From Chrysophaeum taylorii (taxonomy: Eukaryota > Sar > Pelagophyceae > Pelagomonadales > Pelagomonadaceae): a stretch of 64,000 bases of DNA. The notes below the pieces were generated by a model. That model worked only from the letters and a program-made list of their open reading frames with translations. It was not told where the DNA came from and did no database searches. Positions 31,840 to 64,000 of this stretch are shown here, piece after piece (the stretch's first letter is position 1; each line of letters opens with the position of its first letter). The translations under genes were made by a program, and so were the position numbers. Where the stretch lies: the NCBI GenBank assembly GCA_029834535.1, contig JAQMWT010000044.1:124001-188000 (forward strand). Direction: 5' to 3'.

Positions 31840-31878
31840 AGCAGCACCGTTGTGCATTTACTCAAGTCGAGGAGCACG

Positions 31879-38949: not shown

Positions 38950-41900
38950 ATGGCCACCTTGCCCACCTTCGACCCCGCCGACGCTTGGGCGTGCTTCGCC
39001 GAGCTCAAGCGCCACCTCGACTTGCCCGAAGCGCAAAAAACGATTCCTCTCGACGAGCTGTTCGAAGAGGCCTTCGACCTGTGCTTCAAGGTGCACCCTA
39101 GTTCGCTCAGTCCCGAAGCGCGCGCCGCCTTCTTCAACAACCTCGATCGGAACCAGAACGGGCGCGTATCTTTCGTCGAGTGGCGGCTGTTCCACCGGCA
39201 GTGGCGGGCGTCCCGCGAGTCGATGGCCGACTACCTCGCGTCGCTGCCGACGTCCGGAGCGCTGACTAGCTCGACGCCCGACCACGAAATCGCGTTGAGG
39301 ATCGGAACCGACGCGCCCCAAGAGGAAGACTACGGTACGGGCACGGTCGAGGGCCGCGTGGAGGGGATTCAGGAGTTAAGCGGGCTCGGAGCTGCGGTTA
39401 TTGCAATGGAAACTCACGCCCCTGAAATCACAATCGAAGGTCGCGGCTCAGGGGGTTTAGCAGTCGATCTGCTACACGGCGTTCGTTTTGAACTCAAGCT
39501 TGCGTTTCCCATCGAATTTGCTTGGCGGATCCTTAAGAACGCGGTAATTAAATACGGCGGCGGCAACGAGACCCGCGACATGATCATCGCCTCTCTGAAA
39601 GAAGATACAGAGAAGATCATCGAAGGTCTCGACGTGCTCCGCACGGCCAAGCTATCCGTCGCTCTGGACATGCTCAAGTCGCTGCTGGAAAAGTACAAGC
39701 GCTTGGCGTTGTCGATTTCGTCGTCGGATGAGCTGAGGAAGAGAGACGACATCAAAGACCTTCGCTTTGATGCCGTCAGTGTTCGGAATCTCGCGACCGA
39801 GGCGTTCCGCACCGTCACGAACAAGGAGCAGAAGGTTCAGGCAGTGAAGATCGCCATGATCGCGACGGCAATCGGTTACGGCCTCGGAGGGAGCGCCGTA
39901 GACGCCCATGTCGAACTGAGACAACAAGTCGAGAAGTTGCTCGGCGCGACGAGAGTATCGAGCAGGCCATCAGCACGCAGCTCAAAGGCGGCGACGGGCT
40001 TTTCTCGTTTGGGAGCAGGGTCGATCGCGAAAAGCTTATCTGCGACATCCTGGTGCTCGTTCTTCGCGAACACTCGTTCGCTGTCACGCGCGGTTTCCGC
40101 GACAGGGAGTCCGTGGAGCCGATTCTGCACTCGAAGTCTATTATCGAGTTTCTGTTAAATCGGAACGACACCGGCTACCTTCGAACGCTGGGCAAGGAGC
40201 GATACGTGCCTGTCGCCGATGCGTTTTCCACACTTAGTCGGCACGCCTTAAACCTTTGCTTAAAGAAATCGTACGTCTTTCCGGCGTTGTTTGTTTATTA
40301 TTTGCTTCTTTGAATGTCGTGCGTTTAAAACTCGTGGGCGCAGTTTCGAGAGCTCGGGCGTCGAGGACGCGGCGCGAAAGGCGGAAATCATCGTTGGAAT
40401 CCGAAACGACACCTATCTCTATCTAAGGTGAATCGCGGTGCCCGAGCATTTCTTTGAGATTGTCGGAAATTCGTTTGTTGTGCTCCGCGGGCAAACTCGA
40501 CGATACCGCACCATCCCACGTCTGCCGTCCCCATTCTACCATCGCACTTATTCGTTGCTCGCAGCTCAAAAAATATCGGCGACGAGGTCGCCGCGGCGAT
40601 ATCCACTGGGCTAGAGAAAAACACGACGCTCCAGGAGCTCTTGCTTTCGTGCGTATTTCCGAACTTAGTCCCTACGAATGTTTATTGTCACTCCACAACG
40701 AGAGCTCCCGGCGCATCGCGTCTCCAACGAATCGCGCCAACGATCCCTCGTACGCCCATTTTTTTTTCATGTTCTTTTTGTGTGATTGCTGTGTTACCAT
40801 CTCACCCCGAGTGCTTCTCGCAGCTCCAACCGCATCGGCGACGAGGGCGCGAGGGCTCTTTCACAAATGCTCTCCAAAAACACGACGCTCCAGACGCTCA
40901 GGCTTAAGTACGTATTTCCGAACTTAGTCCCTACGAATGTTTATTGTCTCTCCACAACGAGAGCTCCCGGCGCATCGCGTCTCCAACGAATCGTGCCAAC
41001 GATCCCTCGTACGCCCATTTTTTTTTCATGTTCTTTTTGTGTGATTGCTGTGTTACCATCTCACCCCGAGTGCTTCTCGCAGCTCCAACCACATCGGCGT
41101 CGAGGGCGCGAGGGCTCTTTCACAAATGCTCTCCAAAAACACGACGCTCCAGACGCTCTGGCTTTCGTGCGTATTTCCGAACTTAGTCCCTACGAATGTT
41201 TATTGTCTCTCCACAACGAGAGCTCCCGGCGCATCGCGTCTCCAACGAATCGTGCCAACGATCCCTCGTACGCCCATTTTTTTTTCATGTTCTTTTTGTG
41301 TGATTGCTGTGTTACCATCTCACCCCGAGTGCTTCTCGCAGCACCAACCACATCGGCGTCGAGGGCGCGAGGGCTTTTTCGGATATGCTCTCCAAAAACA
41401 CGACGCTCCAGACGCTCTGGCTTTCGTGCGTATTTCCGAACTTAGTCCCTACGAATGTTTATTGTCTCTCCACAACGAGAGCTCCCGGCGCATCGCGTCT
41501 CCAACGAATCGTGCCAACGATCCCTCGTACGCCCATTTTTTTTTCATGTTCTTTTTGTGTGATTGCTGTGTTACCATCTCACCCCGAGTGCTTCTCGCAG
41601 CTCCAACCACATCGGCGTCGAGGGCGCGAGGGCTCTTTCACAAATGCTCTCCAAAAACACGACGCTCCAGACGCTCTGGCTTTCGTGCGTATTTCCGAAC
41701 TTAGTCCCTACGAATGTTTATTGTCTCTCCACAACGAGAGCTCCCGGCGCATCGCGTCTCCAACGAATCGTGCCAACGATCCCTCGTACGCCCATTTTTT
41801 TTTCATGTTCTTTTTGTGTGATTGCTGTGTTACCATCTCACCCCGAGTGCTTCTCGCAGCTCCAACCACATCGGCGTCGAGGGCGCGAGGGCTCTTTCAC

Positions 41901-43107
41901 AAATGCTCTCCAAAAACACGACGCTCCGGATTCTCTATCTTAAGTGCGTATTTCCGAACTTAGTCCCTACGAATGTTTATTGTCTCTCCACAACGAGAGC
42001 TCCCGGCGCATCGCGTCTCCAACGAATCGTGCCAACGATCCCTCGTACGCCCATTTTTTTTTCATGTTCTTTTTGTGTGATTGCTGTGTTACCATCTCAC
42101 CCCGAGTGCTTCTCGCAGCTCCAACCACATCGGCGTCGAGGGCGCGAGGGCTCTTTCACAAATGCTCTCCAAAAACACGACGCTCCGGATTCTCTATCTT
42201 AAGTGCGTATTTCCGAACTTAGTCCCTACGAATGTTTATTGTCTCTCCACAACGAGAGCTCCCGGCGCATCGCGTCTCCAACGAATCGTGCCAACGATCC
42301 CTCGTACGCCCATTTTTTTTTCATGTTCTTTTGTGTGATTGCTGTGTTACCATCTCACCCCGAGTGCTTCTCGCAGCTCCAACCACATCGGCGTCGAGGG
42401 CGCGAGGGCTCTTTCACAAATGCTCTCCAAAAACACGACGCTCCAGACGCTCTGGCTTTCGTGCGTATTTCCGAACTTAGTCCCTACGAATGTTTATTGT
42501 CTCTCCACAACGAGAGCTCCCGGCGCATCGCGTCTCCAACGAATCGTGCCAACGATCCCTCGTACGCCCATTTTTTTTTCATGTTCTTTTTGTGTGATTG
42601 CTGTGTTACCATCTCACCCCGAGTGCTTCTCGCAGCACCAACCACATCGGCGTCGAGGGCGCGAGGGCTTTTTCGGATATGCTCTCCAAAAACACGACGC
42701 TCCAGACGCTCTGGCTTTCGTGCGTATTTCCGAACTTAGTCCCTACGAATGTTTATTTTCTCTCCACAACGAGAGCTCCCGGCGCATCGCGCCTCCAACG
42801 AATCGCGCCAACGATCCCTCGTACGCCCATTTTTTTTTCATGTTCTTCTTGTGTGATTGCTGTGTTACCATCTCACCCCGAGTGCTTCTCGCAGCTTCAA
42901 CAGCATCGGCGACGAGGGCGCGAGGGCTTTTTCGGATATGCTCTCCAAAATCACGACGCTCCAGAAGCTCTATCTTTCGTGCGTATTTTAAACTCCAACA
43001 TTCTCCAGCGAACCGAGATGTGTGCACATAGGGGAAACAACATCACCGACGCCGCCAAAACCTTGCTTCGAGCTGCCGCTGGGCCGTCGCTACTATTGAT
43101 CCTCTGA
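38950..43107 (+). CDS. LRR gene A: EF-hand, helical domain, 11 one-exon LRRs
   Basis: Thirteen exons: 38950-40270, 40344-40427, 40565-40648, 40824-40907, 41083-41166, 41342-41425, 41601-41684, 41860-41943, 42119-42202, 42377-42460, 42636-42719, 42895-42978, 43032-43107. Exon 1 carries an EF-hand loop (DRNQNGRVSFVE, residues 66-77, all ligand positions fit) and a long helical domain with one 11-residue IIASLKEDTEK unit. Exons 2-12 are each 84 bp and encode 28-residue ribonuclease-inhibitor-type repeats (SNHIGVEGARALSQM..). The last exon caps the array (GNNITDAAKTLLRAA). All introns are phase 2. Compared with B and C, exon 1 has two extra bases near 39945 (GGCGCGACG for GGCGACG) that shift the frame, so as written A would be truncated at 40158. 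Either a recent pseudogene or a sequence error. No NB-ARC, ROCO, kinase or signal peptide is seen. Confidence 0.85.
40565..42978 (+). repeat. Tandem exon-intron array of LRR gene A (259-bp unit)
   Basis: Ten 84-bp exons alternate with nine 174-175 bp introns. The introns are nearly identical (GTGCGTATTTCCGAACTTAG at the start, a T run in the middle, CACCCCGAGTGCTTCTCGCAG-type end), differing by a few bases and one missing T at 42309-42322. The pair at 41083-41425 recurs as the pair at 42377-42719, showing that blocks of two repeats were copied together. Confidence 0.95.
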
Positions 43108-43327
43108 GGAACACGGACGTTTCGACGACTCGCGAAAACACCAATCGCCGCAGGTTGTTGTGAAGGTGTGGAGGTCCAGCAACCTACCCCGTCGCGCGCT
43201 ATCAAATGGGCGTGTGTCCTTAGAAGTTTCTTTCGCCTGCGTTTTCTCCTCCTCTCCTCCGAGGTGTTGGCTGAGGCCCCCCACCCACCGAGAGTGCTCC
43301 CCGTATCTCTTAACCCTCCCCCTTTTG

Positions 43328-43982
43328 ATGGAGGGCGAGGTCTTGGCGATGATGATGATGGTTCTTGTGATATTGGTGATCATCGCGAGCGTCGTCGTCG
43401 TGGTTCGACGTGTTCGACGGAAGAGGGGCGAGGCCGTGGTGGTGGTGTACGGTACGACGAAGGGGCGTGCGCGCGAGGTTGCGAATGAGTTGGCCGCGGG
43501 GCTGTCGCGCCCATCGATCATCGTCGACGCCGCTCGCGACGAAATCCGTTGGGAGATTCCCCGCGACATCGTGGTGATTGTCGCGACTTATGATGGTCTC
43601 GCGCCCGAAGGGACGCGGCAGACGTTTGCTGATCTCGAGGAGGCGTCGGCGGACTTTCGCGTGGATGCCGCGTTGACGGGAAAGAAGTATTCTATCCTTG
43701 GAGTCACTGGGTAGCTCGGCGTACGCCGAATACAATAACGCCGCCAAGACAATCGACGGGCATTTGCGGCGGTTCGGCGGCGCGCGCGTCGCGTGCGAGT
43801 TCCTGGACGACTGCAAGAACGATCGCGCCAAGGAGGCGCGATGGATGAAGCGAACGATAAAAGCGATGGAATCACTGCAAAATACTTTAACACCATCACT
43901 ACCTCCCAACCGGGAAAAGCCGGACATCGGGGACACCGTGCAACAACAAGTGACAGCGCGGCAAGCCCGGAATCTGAAATAG
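43328..43982 (+). CDS. Membrane-anchored TYW1-type flavodoxin protein, copy 1
   Basis: ATG at 43328. An N-terminal membrane helix (MMMMVLVILVIIASVVVVV) is followed by basic residues and a flavodoxin domain: YGTTKGRARE (FMN phosphate loop), VATYDGLAPEG, LEEASADFRVD, GKKYSILGVTG, SAYAEYNNAAKTIDGHL. The LEEAS.DFR block is characteristic of TYW1, the wybutosine tRNA enzyme with a membrane segment, flavodoxin and radical SAM domain. No radical SAM motif follows, so this is a flavodoxin-only protein of about 215 residues or a fragment. The frame breaks at 43714: GGG TAG C must be read one base later to continue into SAYAEYNN. The same break exists in copy 2. It lies 220 bp after LRR gene A, same strand. 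Confidence 0.6.
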
Positions 43983-45023
43983 ACGCCATCGCGCGGCCAG
44001 GGGCGCGGCAAACTGCTCTACCTCGTCAGGGAGCAGCTCGCAGTCGCGGTGCGACTCGCTTCGGCTTTGACTGCTCACGTCGACCCGTCCCGTCGGCCAA
44101 GGCGATCTCCAGAGCTTTTTTTTGTTCGAGGCTCCTCGCAGCGCGTTCGGACAACGCCGCCAGGCTGCGTTCTAATGATGAACCTCGGGAACAACCCGGA
44201 GAATGCCCCCGGCAGCACGCAGCACCCTCGCGTCATGATGTGAGTCGCTTGCAGGTAGGCTTGTCCAAATGGCACCGCACTTGCGCGGCCGCGTGTTATG
44301 GTGGCCCAAATTTGGCTCGAGTTTGGTGTCAGACATTCTCATGTCAGGAATTATTCAGGAGTACACGCTGCGCATGGTCGACGACCACCTCGAGTTGCGT
44401 CAAAGAGATGCCGCCAGCGGCGTGGCACGCCTGGCTCTGCGCGGGTTTCTTGGACACAGACTGTTCGTGTCGTTGCCCTCCGTAGTGGTCGAAAATGCCA
44501 TCGGTGAGAGGAGCCGAGGTCTCTTGAGTGGCATGCTGAATTTTCGCACTATCGCCTGAGCACGTCAGCGTTGGTACTCGAAAAATCGATTTAGTCATGC
44601 ACGGCGAGCCAAGGTCACAAACGCAGACGGGTCCGAGAGTGAAAGTCCTTGTGCGCGGTGTCGTGTGTGGCGGCGAACGTCGCGAGCGCAGTCGCGTTCA
44701 GTGCTCCACCTTCGTGAGAGTTTTGAGTCGGACGCGGGCGGTGTCTCGCTCGCGGGTGGACTCGATGCGGGCTCACTGGGCGGACTGACGGCGCGTCGAG
44801 GCGTCACATTTGTTGGCGGCAATCAAGAAGATCTTGTGCGACGCGCCCTCGAGCTGCGCGGCGATTCAGCAGGTGCGGCACCGGTGTCTCGGCGAAAGGG
44901 GGTACTACGGGGCCTCTGGCCATTTTCTCGGCGATCGACGACGCGCGTTCGGTCGGCACCCATTTGCGCTGGTGGTCGAGGAAGATCTCCACTTGGCAGT
45001 GGACTTTTCGAGGTGGCGGGGTC
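43983..45023. other. Duplicated segment after flavodoxin gene, copy 1
   Basis: About 99 per cent identical by eye to 53439-54483. Holds the frame at 44269-44559 and a plus stretch at 44665-45156 that is open for 163 codons without an ATG. No recognised protein. The differences between copies include a one-base indel near 44363 and a three-base indel near 43999. Confidence 0.6.
44269..44559 (+). CDS. Hypothetical 96-residue protein, intact copy
   Basis: ATG at 44269 to a stop at 44559. The product begins MAPHLRGRVLWWPKFG and contains a Leu/Val-rich second half, with no domain I know. The duplicate at 53728 carries one extra base (GAGTATGACG for GAGTACACG) that shifts the frame after about 31 codons, so only this copy could make the full product. 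The upstream GTGAGT..TGCAG at 44241-44255 might be a very small intron, but at 15 bp I doubt it. Confidence 0.4.
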   Translation: MAPHLRGRVLWWPKFGSSLVSDILMSGIIQEYTLRMVDDHLELRQRDAASGVARLALRGFLGHRLFVSLPSVVVENAIGERSRGLLSGMLNFRTIA

Positions 45024-47249
45024 ATTGCTTAAGGACCAGTCCGATGACGTCTGCTGCGCCTCGGCCTGGAATGACAACGGACGCCGGGCTGGCGACCAGA
45101 GACAATCGCCAAAACCGACGATGTTTCCTGCCTGGATGCTTGGTCGGGCCACCTGAGAGACGCAGCAGCAAGAATTCACATGGGTAATACAAACACACCA
45201 CTTCACAGTGGGCCACTCAGGCCAGGCACTGGGTGATCTACACAAAGACAACCTGCATCTTCATTCACCATCTTTTACGGCACGTCGAAAACAACAACAC
45301 CAACTGGTATTACCGTGCCACCTGCTTAGTAGTAGTCAAGGAAAGCCACGTGAACCACGTTCAAAGCTCAGTTCACGAGCATCGTTGTGTTGTACAGCGA
45401 TTTTAACGCCTTGCACCTCTACGTCTCCCATCGCCCGTCCTGACTGCGGGCGCGGGCGCGGGAGGGGGCGACCGGAGGGGCTGTGGCCAGAGCGGCGGCC
45501 TGAGATCTGTGGATGAGCCGGCGCAGGAGAAGGTCGAGGTATCGACGAGGCAAGCGCCGGTCGACGAGGGTGGCGTCGCTCTGGTTGATGAGGCTGAAGA
45601 TCTGGGAGTCGCACGCGATGCCCTGGTCGGGGACAGGAAGGAGAGAGAGGGGTGGGACGCGAATGGAGGAGGGCGCCAGCCGAGACGCGGTCGGGCGAGC
45701 TGGCGGCAGTGGTGACCGAGGCGGCTCTGCGGCCATCAGTCCGACAGGGGCCCCTATTCCTCGACTCCACGCTGACGCCGCGTTCGTCCGCGTCTCCGCC
45801 GCCAGCTACACCGCCTTGGCCGCCGCCTGCTTGTGCTGCTGCTGCACCTGCTACCCCAGGCTCCTGGCGCTCGCCTGCGCCTCAACGGCGGAGCCAGCTA
45901 GCTCTGCGCGCTCGCGCTTATTAGGCTGCAATGCATCTCCTCCCCCAGGTTCAGGTTGGTCCGCACCGCCTACATTGCGTCCGCCAGGCCCACGAAATCC
46001 CGGTCGCTGATATCTTCTGCAACATCCCAGCCACAGCTCTTTCATCGCCTTGACCACTTACTTAGACTGCGTCGGCCCGGACCAACGCGTTACCTGATCC
46101 ATCGATGCCGCAGGTACGTCGCGAAGCACGGCCCCGATCAAGGTGGTGCCCCTCCTGCGCCACGACTCTGCTCGTCCGACGAGGAGGGACATGGTTCTCG
46201 CACCATGTCCCACCCACGAAGCCTCCAGTGCTCTCCTCGACGCCACACAATGTCATGTCGTCGTGTCGGACCCCCCGTATTCGAAAAAAGGATGCGCGAG
46301 TGGTCTTTGTCCGACGATGATCTTGTTGATAATGGTGATCATCGCGAGCGTCGCGGTAATTCGACCCCCGGACATCGGGTTTCGTACCGACGGGAATCGA
46401 TCGTGAAGGCTTCGTCAGGGGTGAGTTCGTGTGCGGATGCACGTTCATACCTTTGCCAGCTGTTGGTGGCAATGCATGCTTGTGGTGTCAGGGAAACTTT
46501 CATTTGACCTGCGGGCGTCGCTCCAAGCCCGCCTTCTGGCTCTCTCGACCGCGAAGGGCAAGCTCTCTGCCTTTTGCGAGCCAGCTCGCCTTCTGCATCT
46601 CTCGTCCGGAACCTAGTTGTCGAGCAACCAGCGCCTGAAGCTTCAATCAACGACGAGCAAGCGGCACACAGTACACTTGATGCCGTCGACGTCGATCCTG
46701 TGCTGAACGTCGAGCCCGCCGACGCGAGTGCAGTTCCTTCACCCACGCGCGCTCCTCACGGGCGGCTGTCCCAGCTAGCGCGCCGTGCCGTCGTTCATGA
46801 CCTCCAGCTTATCCGCGCGCTCCCTACCGACGCGGCGCTCAAGCCAAACCGGACTCGGGTAGAGGCGCGACCGCCGCCCCAACGTCCCGACCAGGCAAAC
46901 GCCACCACCACCTAGAAAGATCCTCATTGTCGCCGTTGCGGTCGCTCGAAACAGAGGCTGTTGCGGACGCTTGAAACAGAGGAATCCGATCGCCGCTGGC
47001 AAGCACGGGTCATAAGCACGTCGGCCGCCTACTGACGAGTGGGCTCATCTCAATATGAGCCAGGCATATCCCGAAACCTGGTCATGGGCTCCTTGATGTT
47101 GCTTAATTTCATCCTTGCGTCCTTCGCATCGACTACGGGGAGAGAGGGCTCTGTCCAGATATCGAGACCCGGCCCAACCTGTCGCCTTTTTAAAGACGGG
47201 GACCTCCCTCAATTATTTTCTTCTCAGAACATTTCTAGAGTCCGCATTA
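45024..47249. other. Duplicated segment Q, copy 1, no recognised gene
   Basis: Matches 57395-59631 with few changes. Both strands show long GC-rich frames. Plausible pieces are a minus frame at 45419-45736 (FSLINQSDATLVDRR..) and plus frames at 46429-46560 (C-x-C..C-x-x-C..H-x-x-C pattern) and 46590-46915. Homopolymer indels between the two copies (for example A6 against A7 at 46285/58667) shift several of these frames, which argues against strong coding constraint. Confidence 0.5.
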
Positions 47250-48756
47250 ACTCGATCTTCCGACGGGCCGTCCTCGAGAACGCGCGAGACCGAACGAGAC
47301 TCGACTGTCGACTCGGTGGATCGAACATCGTTTCACCTTCGATACGATGCGTGCCGCCGGCTTCGTCGCCGCTGCGAGCGGCCATCGACGTCGCGACCGC
47401 GGTATCGGACTCGCCCGCGGGTTGACGTCCAGTCGACAAACCCGAAAAAAAACTCGGCGGCTCGCTCGACGGGCGGCGCTCCGCGCCGCCGGGCCCGGCG
47501 CTTCGATACGATGCGTGCCGGCGTCTTCGTCGCCGCTGCCAGCGGCCACCGCCGTCGCGACCGCGGCCTCGGACTCGCCCCCGCTGCGGATCGAAGACCA
47601 CGAAAAACGCGGCGACGACCGCGACGAGCGTGCCGCGCGCGCGCGCGCCGACGACCCGGCCGCGCGCCCGCGCACCCCGGTGCGCCGCCGGGCAGCGCAC
47701 CGATACGATGCGTGTCGGCGTCTTCGTCGCCGCCGTCGCGACCGCGGGTTGACGTCCAGTCGACCAACCCGAAATAAAAACTCGACGGCGCGTCGAGGTC
47801 GACGCGTCCGCCAGCGCTTCGATACGATGCGTGCCGGCGTCTTCGTCGCCGCTGCGAGCGGCCACCGCCGTCGCGGACTCGGACTCGGACTCGCCCGCGG
47901 ACTCGGACTCGCCCGCGGTGTCCAGTCGACCAAGCCGAATAAAAAGTCCGCGGCGCGGCGCGCCGGCGCTCGACGCGTCTGCCAGCGCTTCGATACGATG
48001 CGTGCCGGCGTTCGTCGCCGCTTCGATACGATGCGTGCCGGCGTCTTCATCGCCGCTGCGAGCGGCCACCGCCTTCGCGACCGCGGCCTCGGACTCTACG
48101 AGCGCGCCGCGCGCCCGCGCCCCGACGACCGGCCGCGCGCCCGCGCGCGTCCACCACGACCGCCCGTGGCCATCGGCCATCGCCCACGGAGACGAAGACC
48201 TCTCCGCTCGCGTCTACGGCGAAGCCCGCTTCCGCGGCCACGCCTCGCTCTTCCCGCTGCGGCCGTCCTGGCCGCGAGAACCTCTGGACCGTCGACCGCG
48301 ACGGCGCGTCCGCTATCTATGGATTATGCGCGACGCCCTCCTTCTCACTACGCCCGCCACCACCCCGGCGCCTATTGTCTATAATGAAATACTCCATTAA
48401 TTAAAGCGGCCATCCGCCATCTCATAGTCCATCTCATAGTCCATCCGCAAAAAACGCAAAGCCGAAAATAATCAGGCATAACGCTAACCCCCAGAACGGT
48501 TCGCGCAACGGAAAGGAAGGAAAAGGGTACCCACCCTAACCCAAGAACGAAAAAATGCGCAGAAATCTTCAAGAACCGAAAAGACAGAATTTCCACGGCG
48601 TCGCGACTTCGTTTTTGGTCGGCTCCCGAGACGCGGCGGGCGTCGAGGCGGTGGGGGGTCCGGGGGTGTCCCCCGGCGGGGGGTTTGGGGGGCAGAGCCC
48701 CCCAATTCCCGGGGGGTTCGGGGGGCTTGCCCCCCGAGAAAAAGGCCGAAAAAAAC
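47250..48756. repeat. 1.5-kb insertion unique to unit 1, rich in tandem repeats
   Basis: Unit 2 has only 16 bases (59632-59647) at this place, between TCCGCATTA and ACTTC. The left part (about 47330-48062) is a GC-rich degenerate tandem repeat: GATACGATGCGTGCCGGCGT recurs near 47342, 47506, 47701, 47821, 47993 and 48026, and CCAGTCGAC(A/C)AACCCGAA near 47428, 47756 and 47921. The right part has the G/C hairpin cluster. All six frames are stop-poor because of composition, not because of coding. Confidence 0.8.
48651..48738. repeat. G/C hairpin cluster
   Basis: Runs of five to seven G alternate with matching C runs (CCGGGGGTGTCCCCCGG, GGGGGGCAGAGCCCCCC, GGGGGGCTTGCCCCCC), giving at least three stacked hairpins and possible G-quadruplexes. 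It is similar in style to dispersed palindromic repeats of bacteria and some algae. The origin is unknown. Confidence 0.7.
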
Positions 48757-49477
48757 ACTTCGCACCTCCAGCCACATCCAAACCCGACGTCATCATCGTC
48801 GATACTTCCGGCTCTCAGCTCAGAACCGCCGTCAACACACGATGGATGAAGAAGTTCGACAAGGCGCCGAGGTGCGTGGATGCAAAGGACTCAAAGTCGA
48901 GCGATGCCAACGACATACGAGCGAGATCGGCTCCTTGAAGTGGTGCGGTCGGCGAGTCACCGGTACCGATGTCACCTGCAGCCGGGCGCCGTGTGGCGGT
49001 CGACAAACGAGACGCGCGCAGCGTCAATTATTTTTCGGACCGACAATCTCTCGATCACCGCTTGGCAGGAACAGACGCCATGGGCGCGCTGGTCTCGCGC
49101 AGGGATCGAGCTGTGGTCGGGGATCTATCTTACGAGCTCGACTTGGTGGGTTCAGCAAGACACCGAACATCCAAACCCTGACGCCCATTTTCAGGGTCAG
49201 GTGGCTGTTACATGGTCGCGCTTATGGCTACGAAGTCAGATCCATCGCGTGCCACGTGGTAGACGCTGGCACTGTACCTCAAGGTAACTTAAAATCAAAT
49301 TCGTGCTTTCCCTTGAAGTTCTCAAGCAGAATATTGTGACGTAGCAAACAAAAAAGCTAAAGATTTTATGATTTTGTACAGACGACTTCGCGACTTTTTC
49401 AACGGTCACCAATTTGGTACTGCCTGCGCGCAGTTTCTCAAGGTGTGCGTCGCGCCCAAAGACACCTTTGCTTTGAG
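48757..49477. other. Upstream region of LRR gene B (segment R)
   Basis: Matches 59648-60355, the upstream region of gene C. Several plus frames are open (for example 48880-49287), but a 4-bp indel at 49029/59919 and a 9-bp indel near 49418/60306 separate the copies, so I do not call a gene. It probably contains the promoter and 5-prime UTR of the LRR gene. No TATA-like element stands out. Confidence 0.5.
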
Positions 49478-52397: not shown

Positions 52398-52509
52398 GGA
52401 ACACGGGCGTTTCGACGACTCGCGAAAACACCAATCGCCGCAGGTTGTTGTGAGGGTGTGGAGGTCCAGCAACCTACCCCGTCGCGCGCTATCAAATGGG
52501 CGTGTGTCT

Positions 52510-52760: not shown

Positions 52761-52783
52761 ATCTCTTAACCCTCCCCCATATG

Positions 52784-53438
52784 ATGGAGGGCGAGGTCTT
52801 GGCGATGATGATGATGGTTCTTGTGATATTGGTGATCATCGCGAGCGTCGTCGTCGTGGTTCGACGTGTTCGACGGAAGAGGGGCGAGGCCGTGGTGGTG
52901 GTGTACGGTACGACGAAGGGTCGTGCGCGCGAGGTTGCGAATGAGTTGGCCGCGGGGCTGTCGCGCCCATCGATCATCGTCGACGCCGCTCGCGACGAAA
53001 TCCGTTGGGAGATTCCCCGCGACATCGTGGTGATTGTCGCGACTTATGATGGTCTCGCGCCCGAAGGGACGCGGCAGGCGTTTGCTGATCTCGAGGAGGC
53101 GTCGGCGGACTTTCGCGTGGATGCCGCGTTGACGGGAAAGAAGTATTCTATCCTTGGAGTCACTGGGTAGCTCGGCGTACGCCGAATACAATAACGCCGC
53201 CAAGACAATCGACGGGCATTTGCGGCGGTTCGGCGGCGCGCGCGTCGCGTGCGAGTTCCTGGACGACTGCAAGAACGATCGCGCCAAGGAGGCGCGATGG
53301 ATGAAGCGAACGATAAAAGCGATGGAATCACTGCAAAATACTGTAACACCATCACTACCTCCCAACCGGGAAAAGCCGGACATCGGGGACACCGTGCAAC
53401 AACAAGTGACAGCGCGGCAAGCCCGGAATCTGAAATAG
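52784..53438 (+). CDS. Membrane-anchored TYW1-type flavodoxin protein, copy 2
   Basis: Near-identical duplicate of 43328-43982, with an extra in-frame ATG at 52781. Same membrane helix, same flavodoxin motifs, one substitution in the RQ(T/A)FADLEE stretch, and the same reading-frame break at GGG TAG C (53168-53171). Because the break is in both copies it predates the duplication. It sits 387 bp after LRR gene B, the gap being longer than in unit 1 through the 83-bp repeats. Confidence 0.6.
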
Positions 53439-54483
53439 ACGCCATCGCGCGGCGGCCAGGGGCGCGGCAAACTGCTCTACCTCGTCAGGGAGCAGCTCGC
53501 AGTCGCGGTGCGACTCGCTTCGGCTTTGACTGCTCACGTCGACCCGTCCCGTCGGCCAAGGCGATCTCCAGAGCAATTTTTTGTTCGAGGCTCCTCGCAG
53601 CGCGTTCGGACAACGCCGCCAGGCTGCGTTCTACTGATGAACCTCGGGAACAACCCGGAGAATGCTGCCGGCAGCACGCAGCACCCTCGCGTCATGATGT
53701 GAGTCGCTTGCAGGTAGGCTTGTCCAAATGGCACCGCACTTGCGCGGCCGCGTGTTATGGTGGCCCAAATTTGGCTCGAGTTTGGTGTCAGACATTCTCA
53801 TGTCAGGAATTATTCAGGAGTATGACGCTGCGCATGGTCGACGACCACCTCGAGTTGCGTCAAAGAGATGCCACCAGCGGCGTGGCACGCCTGGCTCTGC
53901 GCGGGTTTCTTGGACACAGACTGTTCGTGTCGTTGCCCTCCGTAGTGGTCGAAAATGCCATCGGTGAGAGGAGCCGAGGTCTCTTGAGTGGCATGCTGAA
54001 TTTTCGCACTATCGCCTGAGCACGTCAGCGTTGGTACTCGAAAAATCGATTTAGTCATGCACGGCGAGCCAAGGTCACAAACGCAGACGGGTCCGAGAGT
54101 GACAGTCCTTGTGCGCGGTGTCGTGTGTGGCGGCGAACGTCGCGAGCGCAGTCGCGTTCAGTGCTCCGCCTTCGTGAGAGTTTTGAGTCGGACGCTGGCG
54201 GTGTCTCGCTCGCGGGTGGACTCGATGCGGGCTCACTGGGCGGACTGACGGTGCGTCGAGGCGTCACATTTGTTGGCGGCAATCAAGAAGATCTTGTGCG
54301 ACGCGCCCTCGAGCTGCGCGGCGATTCAGCAGGTGCGGCACCGGTGTCTCGGCGAAAGGGGGTACTACGGGGCCTCCGGCCATTTTCTCGGCGATCGACG
54401 ACGCGTGTTCGGTCGGCACCCATTTGCGCTGGTGGTCGAGGAAGATCTCCACTTGGCAGTGGACTTTTCGAGGTGGCGGGGTC
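53439..54483. other. Duplicated segment after flavodoxin gene, copy 2
   Basis: Copy of 43983-45023 with about a dozen differences. It stops abruptly at GTC (54481-54483), and the homology to unit 1 resumes at GTC (57392-57394). Confidence 0.8.
53728..54019 (+). pseudogene. Frame-shifted duplicate of the 96-residue hypothetical gene
   Basis: Same start as 44269-44559, but an extra base at 53822-53823 changes the frame after SGIIQEY; the original frame then stays open to 54019 in a neighbouring phase. Which state is ancestral cannot be decided from two copies. Confidence 0.45.
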
Positions 54484-54590
54484 CTAACTACTAATCGACA
54501 GATGTTTGTCTGTCTGTCTGTTTGTCTGTTTGTCTGTTTGTCCCTCGATTTAGGGTAAGGATCAGGTAGGCGCGAGAGTAAGGATCAGTG

Positions 54591-56477
54591 TTACGAATGG
54601 TATGAGGCGTTAGACTAGCGATAGGAGAAAGACGTAAGGATACTGGATACGTGGTGCAGGGGTAAGTGTCATAGCTTCTTCACACAGGTGCTGGAAAAGA
54701 AGGAAAAGGAAAAAGGGGTAAGTGAGGTCTTCACACAGGTGCTGGAAAAGAAGGAAAAGGAAAAAGGGGTAAGTGAGACGCTCACAGAGGAGAAGCTTTG
54801 AGGAAGACGTCACATTTGAGGAAGACGTCACAAAGGCATTGTGGCAAGAAAAAAAAAGAGACAACAGAGATCAGGGCGAAGATCACGAAGTGAGGTAAAG
54901 AGCACGAAGCCGGAGGAAGGAAGGAGCTTCCGTACTGCGGGTGAAAATATCGCTAAGATTGTTAAGGCGGGGTATGTGCTTGAGATCGATGATGTGGTTG
55001 CGATGGTACTCGGCGGTACTGTAAAAGCGAATGTCAATATGGCGGGTGCGCCGTGTGAGACATTGGAGACGAACTTGGGTGACGGTGGTGCTATTATCAA
55101 CATACATTGGGACCGTGTGACGAGGGAGATCAAAGTCATCAAAAAGTTTGAGAAGCCAAGAGAGCTAGCAGCGTAGCAGCGTAAGCAATTCGGCTTCGAA
55201 AGAAGAACGAGCAAGTAAGTATTGCGAGCGGGAGCAGTAGGCTATCATAGAACCAGCAAGGAGAAAACAAAAACCAGTTGTAGAGTGGCGGTCATCAGGG
55301 TCGTCGGCCCAGCTGGAGTCGGAATAACCACAGAGATGAAGGGTAGAATCGCGACCAAGAATAAGGGCAAGATCCTGAGTACCGTTGAGGTAACGCAGAG
55401 TGTGGGATAAAGCGTGCCAGTGGGGTTTACCAGGATTGTGGGAAAACGCGCACACTGATTGACGGACCAAGTGATATCAGGGCGAGTCATGATGGAGATG
55501 AAGAGGACACAGCCAACAATACGGCGAAAAGGGATGCGTGCCATGAAAATGTGATCTGGAGAACCAGGAGCCGGACAATCAGCCGCAGAAAGATGAAGAC
55601 CTTTGGGAGCGGGAGAGTTCAGGTTTACTGTTGATGAAGCGATGTTCGGTAAGGATTTCACGGATAGCATGGGATTGGTCAAGAGTGAGGGTTCTCCGAG
55701 GGCGATCACGCGTAATGCGAAGACCAACGTAAGAGGTGAGATCGAGTTCATTGACGTCAGTGAAAGCGCGGAAACGGAGGAAAAAGGCTTGGTAATGGCC
55801 AATGCAGTGAGGAGGGTGCGCTACAAGAAGATCATCGACGACCAAAACAAGACGGAGGACCACGGTAGAATTGAGCACGAGCTTGTAATGGCAAGTGTCA
55901 CCAGATCCGCGGACGAAGCCACAATCATTGAGAAGGAAGCGTTCCAAATAAAGCCACCAATTGCGACAAGCTTGTTTGCAACCATACCAAGAGCGACGGA
56001 GCTTGTAAACGATTTTGGAACCATCGGTGGGTTGGCGAGGAGCATAGCCTTCGGGTGGCCAGACATAGATGTCTTCGTCAATGGGAGCTTGAATAAAAGC
56101 GGAGCTAACATCCAACTTGTGCAAATCCCAGTCACGAACAGCGACAAAGGTCAGAAAGAAACGGATCGTGACGATGTTGGCAACTGGTGAGTAGGTGTCA
56201 TGATAATCAATGCCGTGAACCTGGGTGTAACCGCGGACGACAAGGCGAGCCTTGTACGATTTAAAGCGGCCAGAGTCATACTTCTTGCGGAGGATCCACT
56301 TGAGGGTACAAATGTTGCCAGAAAAAGTCTGAGGGAGGCGAATCACATCCCAACAACCAAGTTGACCAAGAGAGCTGTATTATGTTACGAATGGTATGAG
56401 GCGTTAGACTAGCGATAGGAGAAAGACGTAAGGATACTGGATACGTGGTGCAGGGGTAAGTGTCATAGCTTCTTCAC
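54591..56477 (-). mobile_element. Ty1/copia LTR-retroelement fossil, younger copy
   Basis: Minus-strand reverse transcriptase at about 56346-55579 (FVAVRDWDLHKLDVSSAF, DEDIYVWPPEGYAP type segments, VVDDLLVA region) and RNase H at about 55470-54900 (GYSDSSWADDPDDRHSTTG). Gag, protease and integrase are absent. Direct repeats of about 95 bp at 54591-54685 and 56384-56477 look like the terminal repeats, and ATCAGGTAGGCGCGAGAG stands just outside on each side (54562-54579 and 56478-56495). The element is internally deleted and broken in several places, but better kept than the copy at 23.1-25.7 kb, so it is younger; same family. Confidence 0.85.
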
Positions 56478-56496
56478 AATCAGGTAGGCGCGAGAG

Positions 56497-57065
56497 CCAG
56501 ACAGTGATCCTCCAAGCCGTCTACGGCGACCTCGCAGACTATTTCCACGACCCGCGGCGGCTCTTTCAGCGCGCCATTCTCACGCCCCGTCGAAACGATG
56601 TTGTCGATGCTGACAACGCGCGCATGACCGCGGCCTTTTTTTCCCGAAGACGAGGCGTCGGAGTTCTTTTCGGCCGACTAGGTTGGGTCGGAAGCCGACG
56701 CCTCGCTCTTTACAGTCGAGTTTTCAACTCCCTGACAACCAACGGCATGCTGACTTTGATCGCGAGCTTAAAGTCTTCGCAACCTCGACCCGTCGCACGG
56801 CCACTGCAACGGTACCAGATACATCATCGATAGTGTCGTGTCACCGAGGCTCCTCCAACCTGTATCCCTCAAGCCCCACCGACGCCAAACGATCACCAAG
56901 AGCCAGGGCCAGACGCCCCGCGAGGTCGGCGTCCTCTTGGCGAAGCCCGTCTTCTGCCACGTCCAGCTCTACGTGGCTCTCTGTCGATCGGCAACCCCGA
57001 GGATATCCTCTTCTAAGTCGACGACTCCACCCTACCCCACACGTGCTGCGCAATACCGATAAGCC
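56497..57065 (+). mobile_element. PIF1/Helitron-type helicase relic, C-terminal part
   Basis: Ordered motifs in three plus frames: YGDLADYFHDPRRLFQRAIL and LTPRRNDVVDADN (56520-56625), a VGSEADASL and FNSLT stretch (56685-56750), then CNGTRYIID (56800-56830) and TKSQGQT..VGVLL..PVF..QLYVAL.R (56895-57000), the last helicase motifs of PIF1-like proteins and Helitron Rep/Hel. At least two frame changes, so not functional. Helitron origin is likely because the N-terminal helicase and host context are absent, but a host PIF1 pseudogene is possible. No Helitron 3-prime end identified. Confidence 0.7.
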
Positions 57066-57097
57066 CCCTCACGGCGTCTACACGCGCACTGTAGGTT

Positions 57098-57382
57098 AAC
57101 TTACTGGGACCAGGTGAACTTACTGGGGTTAGAGATTGGGACTAGGTGAGCTGAGTGCCCAGGTGAACTAACTGGGACCAGGTGAACTAACTGGGACCAG
57201 GTGAACTTTCTGGGGTTTTAGAGTAAACTCAAGGGTTGGCGGCGCGTGCGGATCACAGCAGCTTGGATTGGCGGGGGTGAGAGCGACGAGCTCAAAGGAG
57301 AGTGGGGTGAGTGGGTGTGAGCACGAGTGGGTTTACGCCGAACTTACTGGGGTTAGAGATTGGGACTAGGTGAACTTACTGG
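57098..57382. repeat. 19-bp minisatellite, interrupted
   Basis: Units of GGTGAACT(T/A)ACTGGGACCA and variants recur at 57110-57215 and again at 57340-57382, with a unique stretch of about 120 bases between. TTACTGGGGTTAGAGATTGG occurs in both parts. Confidence 0.85.
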
Positions 57383-57394
57383 CCTGCACTTGTC

Positions 57395-59631
57395 ATTGCT
57401 TAAGGACCAGTCCGATGACGTCTGCTGCGCCTCGGCCTGGAATGACAACGGACGCCGGGCTGGCGACCAGAGACAATCGCCAAAACCGACGATGTTTCCT
57501 GCCTGGATGCTTGGTCGGGCCACCTGAGAGACGCAGCAGCAAGAATTCACATGAGTAATACAAACACACCACTTCACAGTGGGCCACTCAGGCCAGGCAC
57601 TGGGTGATCTACACAAAGATAACCTGCATCTTCATTCACCATCTTTTACGGCACGTCGAAAACAACAACACCAACTGGTATTACCGTGCCACCTGCTTAG
57701 TAGTAGTCAAGGAAAGCCACGCGAACCACGTTCAAAGCTCAGTTCACGAGCATCGTTGTGTTGTACAGCGATTTCAACGCCTCGCACCTCTACGTCTCCC
57801 ATCGGCCGTCCTGACTGCGGGCGCGGGCGCGGGAGGGGGCGACCGGAGGGGCTGAAGGGGGCTGTGGCCAGAGCGGCGGCCTGAGATCTGTGGATGAGCC
57901 GGCGCAGGAGAAGGTCGAGGTATCGACGAGGCAAGCGCCGGTTGACGAGGGTGGCGTCGCTCTGGTTGATGAGGCTGAAGATCTGGGAGTCGGACGCGAT
58001 GGCCTGGTCGGGGGCAGGATGGAGAGAGAGGGGTGGGACGCGAATGGAGGAGGGCGCCAGCCGAGACGCGGTCGGGCGAGCTGGCGGCAGTGGTGACCGA
58101 GGCGGCTCTGCGGCCATCAGTCCGACAGGGGCCCCTATTCCTCGACTTCACGCTGACGCCGCGTTCGTCCGCGTCTCCGCCGCCAGCTACACCGCCTTGG
58201 CCGCCGCCTGCTTGTGCTGCTGCTGCACCTGCTACCCCAGGCTCCTGGCGCTCGCCTGCGCCTCAACGGCGGAGGCCAGCTAGCTCTGCGCGCTCGCGCT
58301 TATTAGGCTGCAATGCATCTCCTCCCCCAGGTTCAGGTTGGTCCGCACCGCCTACATTGCGTCCGCCAGCCCCACGAAATCCAGGTCGCTGATAACTTCT
58401 GCAACATCCCAGCCACAGCTCTTTCATCGCCTTGACCACCTACTTAGACTGCGTCGGCCCGGACCAACGCTTTACCTGATCCATCGATGCCGCAGGTACG
58501 TCGCGAAGCACGGCCCCGATCAAGGTGGTGCCCCTCCTGCGCCACGACTCTGCTCGTCCGACGAGGAGGGACATGGTTCTCGCACCATGTCCCACCCACG
58601 AAGCCTCCAGTGCTCTCCTCGACGCCACACAATGTCATGTCGTCGTGTCGGACCCCCCGTATTCGAAAAAAAGGATGCGCGAGTGGTCTTTGTCCGACGA
58701 TGATCTTGTTGATAGTGGTGATCATCGCGAGCGTCGCGGTAATTCGACCCCCGGACATCGGGTTTCGTACCGACGGGAATCGATCGTGAAGGCTTCGTCA
58801 GGGGTGAGTTCGTGTGCGGATGCACGTTCATGCATCTGCCAGCTGTTGGTGGCAATGCATGCTTGTGGTGTCAGGGAAATTTTCATTTGTCCTGCGGGCG
58901 TCGCTCCAAGCCCGCCTTCTGGCTCTCTCGACCGCGAAGGCAACTCTCTGCCTTTTGCGAGCCAGCTCGCCTTCTGCAGCTCTCGTCCGGAACCTAGTTG
59001 TCGAGCAACCAGCGCCTGAAGCTTCAATCAACGACGAGCAAGCGGCACACAGTACACTTGATGCCGTCGACGTCGATCATGTGCTGAACGTCGAGCCCGC
59101 CGACGCGAGTGCAGTTCCTTCACCCACGCGCGCTCCTCACGGGCCGCTGTCCCAGCTAGCGCGCCGTGCCGTCGTTCATTACCTCCAGCTTATCCGCGCG
59201 CTCCCTGTCGACGCGGCGCTCAAGCCAAACCGGACTCGGGTAGAGGCGCGACCGCCGCCCCAACGTCCCGACCAGGCAAACGCCACCACCACCTAGAAAG
59301 ATCCTCATTGTCGCCGTTGCGGTCGCTCGAAACAGAGGCTGTTGCGGACGCTTGAAACAGAGGAATCCGATCGCCGCTGGCAAGCACGGGTCATAAGCAC
59401 GTCGGCCGCCTACTGACGAGTGGGCTCATCTCAATATGAGCCAGGCATATCCCGAAACCTGGTCATGGGCTCCTTGATGTTGCTTAATTTCATCCTTGCG
59501 TCCTTCGCATCGACTACGGGGAGAGAGGGCCCTGTCCAGATATCGAGACCCGGCCCAACCTGTCGCCTTTTTTAAAGACGGGGACCTCCCTCAATTATTT
59601 TCTTCTCAGAACATTTCTAGAGTCCGCATTA
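57395..59631. other. Duplicated segment Q, copy 2, no recognised gene
   Basis: Copy of 45024-47249 in the same orientation with scattered substitutions and small indels (an extra GAAGGGGGCT-type stretch near 57853, one extra A near 58667). Same unassigned frames as copy 1. Confidence 0.6.
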
Positions 59632-59647
59632 TATAATCAAGGCTTCA

Positions 59648-60355: not shown

Positions 60356-63300
60356 ATGGCCGCCTTCGACCCCGCCGACGCTGGGGCGTGCTTCGCCGAG
60401 CTCAAGCGCCACCTCGACTTGCCCGAAGCGCAAAACACGATTCCGATTCCTCTCGACGAGCTGTTCGAAGAGGCCTTCGACCTGTGCTTCAAGGTGCACC
60501 CTAGTTCGCTCAGTCCCGAAGCGCGCCCCGCCTTCTTCAACAACCTCGATCGGAACCAGAACGGGCGCGTATCTTTCGTCGAGTGGCGGCTGTTCCACCG
60601 GCAGTGGCGGGCGTCCCGCAAGTCGATGGCCGACTACCTCGCGTCGCTGCCGACGTCCGGAGCGCTGACTAGCTCGACGCCCACGCACGACCAAAAAATC
60701 GCGACCACGATCGGAACCGACGCGCCCCAAGAGGAAGACTACGGTACGGGCACGGTCGAGGGCCGCGTGGAGGGGATTCAGGAGTTAAACGGGCTCGGAG
60801 CTGCGGTTATTGCAATGGAAGCTCAAGAAGCCCCTGCAATCACAATCGAAGGTCGCGGCTCCGGGGGTGCTGAAGTCGGTCTGCTACACGGCGTTCGTTT
60901 TGAACTCAAGCTTGCGTTTCCCATCGAATTTGCTTGGCGGATCCTTAAGAACGCGGTAATTAAATACGGCGGCGGCGACGAGACCCGCGACATGATCATC
61001 GCCTCTCTGAAAGAAGACACGCAGACGATCATCGCCTCTCTGAAAGAAGACACGCAGACGACCATAGAAGATCTCAAAGTGCTCCGCACGGCCAAGCTAT
61101 CTGCCGTTTCAGACATGCTCGAGTCGCTGCTGGAAAAGTACGAGCTCTTGGCGTTGTCGATTTCGTCGTCGGATGAGCTGAGGAAGAGCGATGACTTCAG
61201 AAGGCTCCGCGACGATGCCGTCAGTGTTCGGAATCTCGCGACCGAGGCGTTCCGCACCGTCCCGAACAAGGAGCAGAAGGTTCATGCAGTGAAGATCGCC
61301 ATGATCGCGACGGCAATCAGTTACGGCCTCGGGGCGAGCGCCGTAGAGGCCCATGTCGAACTGAAACACGAAGTCGAGAAGTTGCTCGGCGACGAGAGTA
61401 TCAAGCGGGCCATCAACACGCAGCTCAAAGGCGGCGCCGGGGCTTTCTCGTTTGGGAGCAGGGTCGATCGCGAAAAGCTTATCTGCGACATCCTGGTGCT
61501 CGTTCTTCGCGAACACTCGTTCGCTGTCACGCACGGTTTCCGCGACAGGGAGTCTGTGGAGCCGATTCTGCACTCGAAGTCTATTATCGAGTTTCTGTTA
61601 AATCGGAACGGTACCGGCTACCTTCGAGCGCTGGGCAAGGAGCGACTCGAGCTCTTCACAGCCGATTTCCCCACGCTTGGAACTCCGCACTTCTCAGTCC
61701 TTAAGTCGTACGTCTTCCCCGCAGTGTTTGTCTTTGTGCTTCAATGAACGTCGCGTTGTGGTGAAAACTCGTGGGCGCAGTTTCGAGAGCTCGGGCGTCG
61801 AGGACGCGGCGCGAAAGGCGGAAATCATCGTTGGAATCCGAAACGACACCAATCTCAATCTAAGGTGAATCGCGGTGCCCGAGCATTTCTTTGAGATTGT
61901 CGGAAATTCGTTTGTTGTGCTCCGCGGGCAAACTCGACGATACCGCATCATCCCACGTCTGCCGTCCCCATTCTACCATCGCACTTATTCGTTGCTCGCA
62001 GCTCAAAAATTATCGGCGACGAGGTCGCCGCGGCGATATCCGCTGGGCTAGAGAAAAACACGACGCTCCGGATTCTCTATCTTAAGTGCGTATTTCCAAA
62101 CAATGGTCCCACGAATGCTTTTGTCTCCGCACAACGAGAGCTCCCGGCGCATCGCGTCTCCAGCGAATCGCGCCAACGATCCCTCGTACGCCCATTTTTT
62201 TTTCATGTTCTTTTCGTGTGATTGCTGTGTTACCATCTCACCCCGAGTGCTTCTCGCAGCTCCAACAGCATCGCCGTCGAGGGCGCGAGGGCTCTTTCAC
62301 AAATGCTCTCCAAAAACACGACGCTCCAGACGCTCTGGCTTAAGTGCGTATTTCCGAACTTAGTCCCTACGAATGTTTATTGTCTCTCCACAACGAGAGC
62401 TCCCGGCGCATCGCGTCTCCAACGAATCGCGCCAACGATCCCTCGTACGCCCATTTTTTTTTCATGTTCTTTTTGTGTGATTGGTGTGACCATCTAGTGC
62501 TTCTCGCAGCTCCAACAGCATCGGCGTCGAGGGCGCGAGGGCTCTTTCACAAATGCTCTCCAAAAACACGACGCTCCAGAAGCTCTATCTTAAGTGCGTA
62601 TTTCCGAACTTAGTCCCTACGAATGTTTATTGTCTCTCCACAACGAGAGCTCCCGGCGCATCGCGTCTCCAGCGAATCGCGCCAACGATCCCTCGTACGC
62701 CCATTTTTTTTTCATGTTCTTTTTGTGTGATTGCTGTGTTACCATCTCACCCCGAGTGCTTCTCGCAGCTCCAACCGTATCGGCGACGAGGGCGCGAGGG
62801 CTTTTTCGGATATGCTCTCCAAAAACACGACGCTCCAGACGCTCGGGCTTTCGTGCGTATTTCCGAACTTAGTCCCTACGAATGTTTATTGTCTCTCCAC
62901 AACGAGAGCTCCTGGCGCATCGCGTCTCCAACGAATCGCGCCAACGATCCCTTGTACGCCCCGTTTTTTTTTCATGTTCTTTTTGTGTGATTGCTGTGTT
63001 ACCATCTCACCCCGAGTGCTTCTCGCAGCTCCAACCACATCGGCGTCGAGGGCGCGAGGGCTCTTTCACAAATGCTCTCCAAAAACACGACGCTCCAGAT
63101 TCTCGATCTTTCGTGCGTATTTCCGAACTTAGTCCCTACGAATGTTTATTGTCTCTCCACAACGAGAGCTCCCGGCGCATCGCGTCTCCAACGAATCGCG
63201 CCAACAATCCCTCGTACGCCCATTTTTTTTTCATGTTCTTTTTGTGTGATTGCTGTGTTACCATCTCACCCCGAGTGCTTCTCGCAGCTCCAACCGCATC

Positions 63301-64000
63301 GGCGACGAGGGCGCTAGGGCTTTTGCGGAAATGCTCTCCAAAAACACGACGCTCCAGAAGCTCTGGCTTAAGTGCGTATTTCCGAACTTAGTCCCTACGA
63401 ATGTTTATTGTCTCTCCACAACGAGAGCTCCCGGCGCATCGCGTCTCCAACGAATCGCGCCAACGATCTCTCGTACGCCCATTTTTTTTTCATGTTCTTT
63501 TTGTGTGATTGCTGTGTTACCATCTCACCCCAAGTGCTTCTCGCAGCGACAACAGCATCGCCTTCGAGGGCGCGAGGGCTCTTTCACAAATGCTCTCCAA
63601 AAACACGACGCTCCAGTCGCTCGGGCTTTCGTGCGTATTTCCGAACTTACTTTCCCTACGAATGTTTATTGTCTCTCCACAACGAGAGCTCCCGGCGCAT
63701 CGCGTCTCCAACGAATCGCACCAACGATCTCTCGTACGCCCATTATTTTTTCATGTTCTTTTTGTGTGATTGCTGTGTTACCATCTCACCCCGAGTGCTT
63801 CTCGCAGCTACAACCGTATCGGCGACGAGGGCGCGAGGGCTTTTTCGGATATGCTCTCCAAAAACACGACGCTCCAGAAGCTCTATCTTTCGTGCGTATT
63901 TTAAACTCCAACATTCTCCAGCGAACCGAGATGTGTGCACATAGGGGAAACAACATCACCGACGCCGCCAAAACCTTGCTTCGAGCTGCCGCTGGGCCGT
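60356..64000 (+). CDS. LRR gene C: EF-hand, helical domain, 9 one-exon LRRs (cut by window end)
   Basis: Exons: 60356-61707, 61781-61864, 62002-62085, 62260-62343, 62510-62593, 62769-62852, 63029-63112, 63288-63371, 63547-63630, 63808-63891, 63945-beyond 64000. By analogy with A and B the stop lies 20 bases past the window, giving an intact frame of 727 residues. EF-hand loop DRNQNGRVSFVE is complete. Two 33-bp IIASLKEDT units (60995-61060). Nine 84-bp repeat exons with junction variants NLS, YLN, WLN, YLN, GLS, DLS, WLN, GLS and YLS. The 166-bp short intron at 62344-62509 is at the same position as in B, so B and C share it by descent. The coding region is very close to B (mostly single-base differences). 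Confidence 0.92.

Follow-up and report, generated by a model that had tools for sequence, protein, structure and literature searches.

A 64,000-nucleotide stretch of the Chrysophaeum taylorii genome (assembly GCA_029834535.1, contig JAQMWT010000044.1, positions 124,001 to 188,000 of the forward strand; hereafter the window, with positions counted from its first letter) carries, at positions 38,950-64,000, three tandem plus-strand genes of one family, in which exons encoding leucine-rich repeats (LRRs) stand in arrays between nearly identical introns. The question that this locus raises is why the exons of such arrays differ far more than the introns that separate them. We consider it probable that these are three tandem copies of a gene for an LRR protein, and that diversification of its binding face takes place in the germline. 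Several observations carry this reading: each LRR is a frame-neutral cassette of 84 base pairs (bp) flanked by phase 2 introns of nearly identical sequence; the copies are unequal in repeat number; strongly differing exons lie beside introns that are almost the same; within the 84 bp, codon states occur in reshuffled combinations; and variation in amino acids greatly exceeds the level of the introns, with its maximum on the concave strand of the LRR. In the mechanism we propose, the introns would serve as anchors for unequal crossing-over and short conversion tracts that move and recombine the cassettes, while diversifying selection would retain alternative residues at contact positions from a shared pool of codon states.

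Gene plan and repeat cassettes

All three genes follow one plan: a large exon 1 is followed by a degenerate 84-bp LRR exon, then by the array of LRR exons, each of 84 bp, and, behind a 53-bp intron, by a short cap exon. Their features, together with the flank that is considered below, are as follows.

38950-40270, plus strand: gene 1 exon 1, EF-hand-like loop and helical N-terminal region (from translation and alignment)
40344-40427, plus strand: gene 1 exon 2, degenerate 84-bp LRR exon
40565-42978, plus strand: gene 1 LRR array, 10 exons of 84 bp (starting at 40565, 40824, 41083, 41342, 41601, 41860, 42119, 42377, 42636 and 42895) and 9 introns of 174-175 bp
43032-43107, plus strand: gene 1 terminal cap exon, coding part up to the stop, after the 53-bp intron at 42979-43031
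43112-47249, plus strand: flank behind gene 1, with a duplicated counterpart behind gene 2
49478-50862, plus strand: gene 2 exon 1, 461 codons and 2 bases, EF-hand-like loop and three copies of an 11-residue helical repeat
50936-51019, plus strand: gene 2 exon 2, degenerate 84-bp LRR exon
51157-52268, plus strand: gene 2 LRR array, 5 exons of 84 bp (starting at 51157, 51416, 51666, 51925 and 52185) and 4 introns of 166-176 bp
52322-52397, plus strand: gene 2 terminal cap exon, coding part up to the stop, after a 53-bp intron
60356-61707, plus strand: gene 3 exon 1, 450 codons and 2 bases, EF-hand-type loop DRNQNGRVSFVE and helical region
61781-61864, plus strand: gene 3 exon 2, degenerate 84-bp LRR exon
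62002-63891, plus strand: gene 3 LRR array, 8 exons of 84 bp (starting at 62002, 62260, 62510, 62769, 63029, 63288, 63547 and 63808) and 7 introns of 166-177 bp
63945-64000, plus strand: gene 3 terminal cap exon, cut by the window end

With a pattern search admitting lengths of 60-110 bp, we found that all 23 array exons (10 + 5 + 8 in genes 1, 2 and 3) are exactly 84 bp long and that each encodes one 28-residue LRR of the ribonuclease inhibitor (RI) type, the first exon of each array being a diverged repeat. Counting the degenerate exons ahead of the arrays (40344, 50936, 61781), the family has 26 LRR exons of 84 bp in the window. All 20 array introns have the form GT...CAG, with GTGCGT at the 5' end in 19 and GTACGT in one, and 13 of them are 175 bp long, the rest measuring 166-177 bp. 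Every array intron is phase 2, and this phase also holds for intron 2, for the last intron of 53 bp and, in genes 2 and 3, for intron 1; in gene 1 the frame is broken before intron 1. The spliced arrays of all three genes contain no in-frame stop, whereas the unspliced arrays contain 6-9 in every frame. A first-pass annotation of this DNA had proposed the one-repeat-per-exon layout and the uniform intron phase, and both are borne out by these counts. The arrays are also far from chance, given the scores of a tandem-repeat finder (4380, 1732 and 3051 for genes 1, 2 and 3).

Such a layout would lend itself to combinatorial alternative splicing, in which any subset of the 84-bp phase 2 exons would preserve the reading frame. 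None of the array exons shifts the frame, their splice sites are nearly identical, and splice variants are published for brown-algal ROCO genes (PMC11378527) and human NLRs (PMC6642158), according to excerpts of these papers. As the main use of the layout we nevertheless think it unlikely: it is compatible with germline diversification, but alone it leaves the divergence of the exons above the introns unexplained. The variable contact residue 28 is coded by the last two bases of every array exon (TC, AA or GG before the donor, for example at the border 40907/40908). Since these bases sit directly before the splice donor, they may influence splicing and binding jointly.

Exon and intron variation

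The mean pairwise difference is 11.2% among 20 array exons, after removal of the diverged repeat that opens each array (3 of 23 exons), and 2.7% among the 20 array introns. The ratio of exon to intron diversity is 5.9 (unit bootstrap 4.5-8.0, computed over the 17 units in which an exon is followed by an intron). The near-identity of introns within and between genes that the first-pass annotation described therefore holds on average, the first array intron being exceptional with 17 differences in 174 between genes 2 and 3. What that annotation overlooked is that the introns are more alike than the exons they separate. Most of the minor exon states change the amino acid (31 of 35; 10 of 11 private states and 21 of 24 shared states).

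Recent tandem duplication of units and genes, followed by neutral drift with unselected exons, is an account for which the low divergence of the duplicated genes and flanks (about 1%) and a partial correlation between exon and intron distances speak, both of which are presented below. Contrary to the neutral expectation, exons exceed introns about six-fold, nearly all shared exon states alter the protein, and the variation follows the contact register of the LRR, so that this account appears improbable.

We next placed the variation on the repeat, counting positions from the first full codon of the exon. At codon positions 1-2, the concave codons 1, 3, 24, 26 and 28 show a diversity of 0.455, whereas the other codons show 0.057. 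On the same scale the introns show 0.021 without the first array intron of gene 3 (g3i1) and 0.027 with it. Amino-acid heterozygosity averages 0.57 at positions 1, 3, 23, 24, 26 and 28, compared with 0.11 elsewhere (permutation p-value 0.0002), and the true register ranks first among the 28 circular shifts in this test. We take these variable positions to be the x residues of the LxxLxLxxNxI motif that, in ribonuclease inhibitor, point towards the concave side. A further variable patch lies at positions 5, 6 and 12-14. The assignment of the 28-residue LxxLxLxxNxI-kind repeat to the RI type rests on matches to PDB entries 1z7x (6e-60) and 5irm (6e-40), presumably human RI and NOD2, and on a match to Pfam LRR_6 (5e-50).

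When minor states were divided into private and shared, private states occurred at 11 per 84 exon sites and 20 per 175 intron sites (p-value 0.69), whereas shared states occurred at 24 per 84 exon sites and only 6 per 175 intron sites (p-value 2e-8). These counts omit g3i1, one of the 20 introns, with which the introns have 28 private and 8 shared states over 178 columns. Counted by codon or triplet with gaps ignored, the comparison is 12 of 28 exon codons with 5 of 59 intron triplets (p-value 0.0003). Private states that are equally dense in both, together with shared states that are denser in exons, point to exchange and selection rather than to targeted hypermutation. A mutator aimed at the contact codons would fit the concentration of variation in these codons, between which invariant codons lie, but private variants are no denser in exons and the excess falls among the shared states, which makes such a mutator extremely unlikely. 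The introns offer a built-in neutral yardstick in the same array, by which homogenisation, exchange and selection can be separated within one gene.

The age of the introns bears on this yardstick. Introners, mobile introns put into each repeat of an older intronless LRR array, would leave introns younger than exons and could account for near-identical introns at one position per repeat, for the more divergent exons and for silent sites of codons 9 and 13 that vary above the introns. However, among four-fold codons of strictly invariant residues, 8 of 9 have no third-position variation, which argues that, at most silent sites, the exons are no older than the introns. Elsewhere in the window, the intron consensus finds only matches of 11-25 bases with E-values of 1 or more. 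In an alignment it has only the ends in common with intron 2, and the last intron shares, by eye, its first ten bases with the array introns. Overall, we regard introners as highly unlikely here. As a separate observation, one intron was assessed as a structured RNA, and this reading was rejected (z-score of −0.19).

Exchange and duplication of repeat units

Inside the 84-bp exon, 90 of 231 informative site pairs fail the four-gamete test. In the array exons e6 and e7 of gene 1, the 5' and helix parts match exon e3 of the same gene and are of the gene 1 type, whereas their last 18 bases match only each other and the first array exons of genes 2 and 3 (g2e1 and g3e1). The introns behind both bear a variant found only in gene 1, where it is limited to seven neighbouring introns, i2-i8.

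The comparison of genes 2 and 3 separates exons from introns most sharply. Array introns i2, i3 and i4 differ between these genes at 1 of 166, 3 of 175 and 4 of 176 positions, whereas exons e2 and e3 differ at 12 and 9 of 84. Both genes share a 9-base loss in i2 and an extra base and a G in i4 (i3 has no such marker), and this combination of markers is absent at those positions from all other array introns. At the non-coding rate between genes 2 and 3 (15 of 1435), the Poisson tails are 2e-10 for e2 and 4e-7 for e3, and they become 2e-7 and 6e-5 when the divergent i1 is included in the rate. As judged by these alignments, e3 is the clean case of an exon difference between genes 2 and 3. The earlier proposal that the introns allow repeats to be gained, lost or swapped is thus supported by the copy numbers of 10, 5 and 8, by the i2-i8 variant and by the contrast of e2 and e3 with i2-i4.

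Whole genes have been copied as well. The flank behind gene 1 differs from its counterpart behind gene 2 by 1.06% (18 of 1703 positions; 43318-45020 and 52774-54480) and, further downstream, by 1.44% (32 of 2227; 45021-47249 and 57392-59631), and this distance of about 1% indicates that the flank was copied along with the gene. For genes 2 and 3, the 5' flanks are 0.85% apart (6 of 708). Between genes 1 and 2, we count 100 differences in 1301 positions of exon 1, 13 in 69 of intron 1, 1 in 84 of exon 2 and none in 137 of intron 2. The likeness of gene 1 to genes 2 and 3 starts approximately at the start codon (38950), so that the region upstream of gene 1 differs. On sequence likeness, the three genes are clearly recent duplicates.

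The flanks and the spaces between the genes carry further features. An insertion at 54483-57392, within the flank common to genes 1 and 2, encodes on the minus strand a reverse transcriptase of the Copia type (Pfam RVT_2, 1e-36). It contains a perfect direct repeat of 96 bp (54589 and 56383) and is bordered by a possible 3-base target repeat GTC (by eye). An 83-bp unit is present three times in tandem behind gene 2 (52510-52761) and once behind gene 1 (by eye). The region between genes 1 and 2 (47250-48757) is GC-rich with short repeats, and its counterpart is absent at the matching place before gene 3. An open frame at 43310-43711, which begins with a hydrophobic stretch (by eye) and contains a flavodoxin domain (Pfam 8e-7), ends early and has a near-identical copy at 52780-53170; it resembles a piece of a longer gene of the flavodoxin type.

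Several observations weigh against diversification of the binding face by exchange and selection. Silent variation is not as low as in the introns: mean silent diversity is 0.064 once three nearly constant codons are added, an excess due to codons 9 and 13, and the Nei-Gojobori proportions of nonsynonymous (pN) and synonymous (pS) differences over 20 exons are 0.129 and 0.070. By gene, pN/pS is 0.106/0.042 in gene 1, 0.151/0.125 in gene 2 and 0.138/0.090 in gene 3, beside intron diversities of 0.009, 0.038 and 0.039. The silent change at codon 13 always lies within a block of amino-acid changes at codons 12-14, while silent changes at codon 28 are added by the last exon through its junction base; we therefore judged the introns to be the cleaner neutral yardstick. 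In exon 1, pN/pS is 0.70 for genes 2-3, 1.19 for genes 1-2 and 1.33 for genes 1-3, without a clear excess. Treating gaps as states, 12 of 28 codons stand against 11 of 59 intron triplets, a weak difference (p-value 0.02). Between genes 2 and 3, exons e1 (3 of 84) and e4 (1 of 84) show no clear excess, and the divergent i1 ahead of e2 suggests that the e2 difference is perhaps part of a longer replaced tract. Exon distances correlate with those of the following introns (Mantel test, r 0.39, p-value 0.0075) and less with those of the preceding introns (r 0.19, p-value 0.10; 0.46 and 0.0005 without g3i1), which indicates that much of the movement involved whole units. All p-values are rough, as sites and units are not independent, and the exchange is deduced from one assembled sequence. 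Identical exons of gene 1, such as e6 and e7, are indistinguishable from an assembly duplication; the private differences of the other units argue against a general assembly artefact. Finally, compared with genes 2 and 3, exon 1 of gene 1 contains an insertion of 2 bp, by which the frame is lost in the last quarter of the exon (translation and alignment), so that gene 1 may be a pseudogene or contain a sequencing error, although all its LRR exons are still open; the exon 1 frames of genes 2 and 3 are open.

Taken together, whole-unit duplication and smaller exchanges both seem to be active in the arrays. A stronger version, in which the arrays are a living cassette store whose LRR exons are moved often, perhaps somatically or in each generation, so that individuals differ in their binding repertoires, with introns anchoring the recombination and the frameshifted gene 1 donating intact repeats, is in our estimate a long shot.

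N-terminal region, neighbouring features and known systems

Genes 1 and 3 encode an EF-hand-type loop, DRNQNGRVSFVE, which we take to fit the canonical EF-hand pattern; gene 2 has N instead of D at its first position. The match to EF-hand_5 covers a single loop (E 0.046, 13.7 bits) and lies below the Pfam cut-off of 25.9, and the EF-hand-like region has weak matches to calbindin and aequorin (E 0.005-0.36). The EF-hand plus LRR design of the first-pass annotation is therefore firm in its LRR half, with the EF-hand half reduced to one canonical-looking loop below the cut-off. The rest of exon 1 is predicted to be largely helical at very low confidence (AlphaFold2, the three copies of the window, mean pLDDT, the predicted local distance difference test score, 41.8). 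Exon 1 also contains a 33-bp repeat coding for the 11-residue helical unit IIASLKEDTQT, in about three copies in gene 2 (50116-50220), two in gene 3 (60994-61065) and one in gene 1. The EF-hand-like and helical region may be a regulatory or signalling part, and the protein may recognise a variable partner, such as non-self, a parasite or a mate.

The gene 3 product after splicing (721 residues, truncated at the window end) has 11 listed Pfam families, with no ROC or COR family among them, and the same scan gave no NACHT family. NCBIfam gave no family for the exon 1 product of gene 3 and one match far below the cut-off for that of gene 2. Neither the N-terminal region nor the LRR array has a confirmed relative in bacterial/archaeal or viral contigs, which has little bearing on eukaryotes, and a 30-base intron word has none in viral contigs. 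Rfam and tRNA scans of the window returned nothing.

Across the window, Pfam scans of 20 frames gave 6 with a family above the cut-off, 1 with a sub-threshold match only and 13 with none. The remaining features are as follows.

1255-3061 and 20560-22494: dispersed pair of repeats, split into three pieces, with 78-83% identity
18985-19803, minus strand: likely gene for a DnaJ-domain protein (Pfam 3e-19)
31834-32865, plus strand: likely nitronate monooxygenase gene (Pfam 6e-55)
36025-36415: 135-bp tandem repeat, 2.9 copies
37517-38029, plus strand: likely methyltransferase gene (Pfam 8e-11)

When compared with published systems, whose descriptions below come from excerpts of the cited papers, the family shares its strategy with several lineages. 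Tetrahymena LRR genes (PMC6564038) have tandem exons of fixed length with phase 2 introns on both sides, variable repeat number and inferred unequal crossing-over or conversion, much as in the window. Their exons are 90 bp long instead of 84 bp, they number thousands of genes compared with the three seen in the window, and a LINE-like element lies beside the repeats, whereas the window has a Copia-type insertion in a flank. Purifying selection is reported for most of the Tetrahymena genes, while the contact residues in the window look diversified.

Brown-algal LRR-ROCO genes (PMC11378527) are alike in having one LRR per exon, phase 2 introns, exon shuffling and diversifying selection at concave sites, and the first-pass annotation had already pointed to them. 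They differ in their 72-bp exons and 23-residue LRRs, as opposed to 84-bp RI-type exons, and in a ROC-COR GTPase domain of which the Pfam scan found no match in the product of gene 3; splice variants are reported for them. Most human NOD/NLRC genes (PMC6642158) encode one 28-residue LRR per frame-preserving exon, and the RI-type repeat is common to both families. A NACHT domain precedes the human LRRs, whereas the gene 3 product has no NACHT match, and near-identical introns, as found in the window, are unmentioned in the excerpts of that paper. In the Podospora NWD allorecognition genes (PMC1805685, PMC4986451), highly alike repeats are exchanged within and between genes and positive selection acts at a few codons of the interaction surface, a combination resembling that of the window, where it is drawn from one assembled sequence. 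Podospora also has pseudogenes with intact repeats, similar to the frameshifted gene 1. The NWD repeats are WD repeats accompanied by a NACHT domain, and a one-repeat-per-exon layout is unmentioned in the excerpts, whereas the window has LRRs, one per exon.

The suggestion that this is an undescribed diversification system was therefore too strong, as the strategy is published for Tetrahymena, brown-algal ROCO and Podospora NWD genes and the layout for human NOD/NLRC genes. Among the matches listed in the open-licence literature, none describes an EF-hand-like/LRR family with 84-bp exons. Confirmation in more individuals would make the genes of the window a further lineage-specific case of exon-by-exon LRR cassette diversification, and would suggest that eukaryotes have repeatedly arrived at recognition repertoires through phase 2 arrays with one repeat per exon. 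Overall, the layout and the proposed mechanism are already known in other lineages, and the gene family itself is, as far as our searches reach, new.

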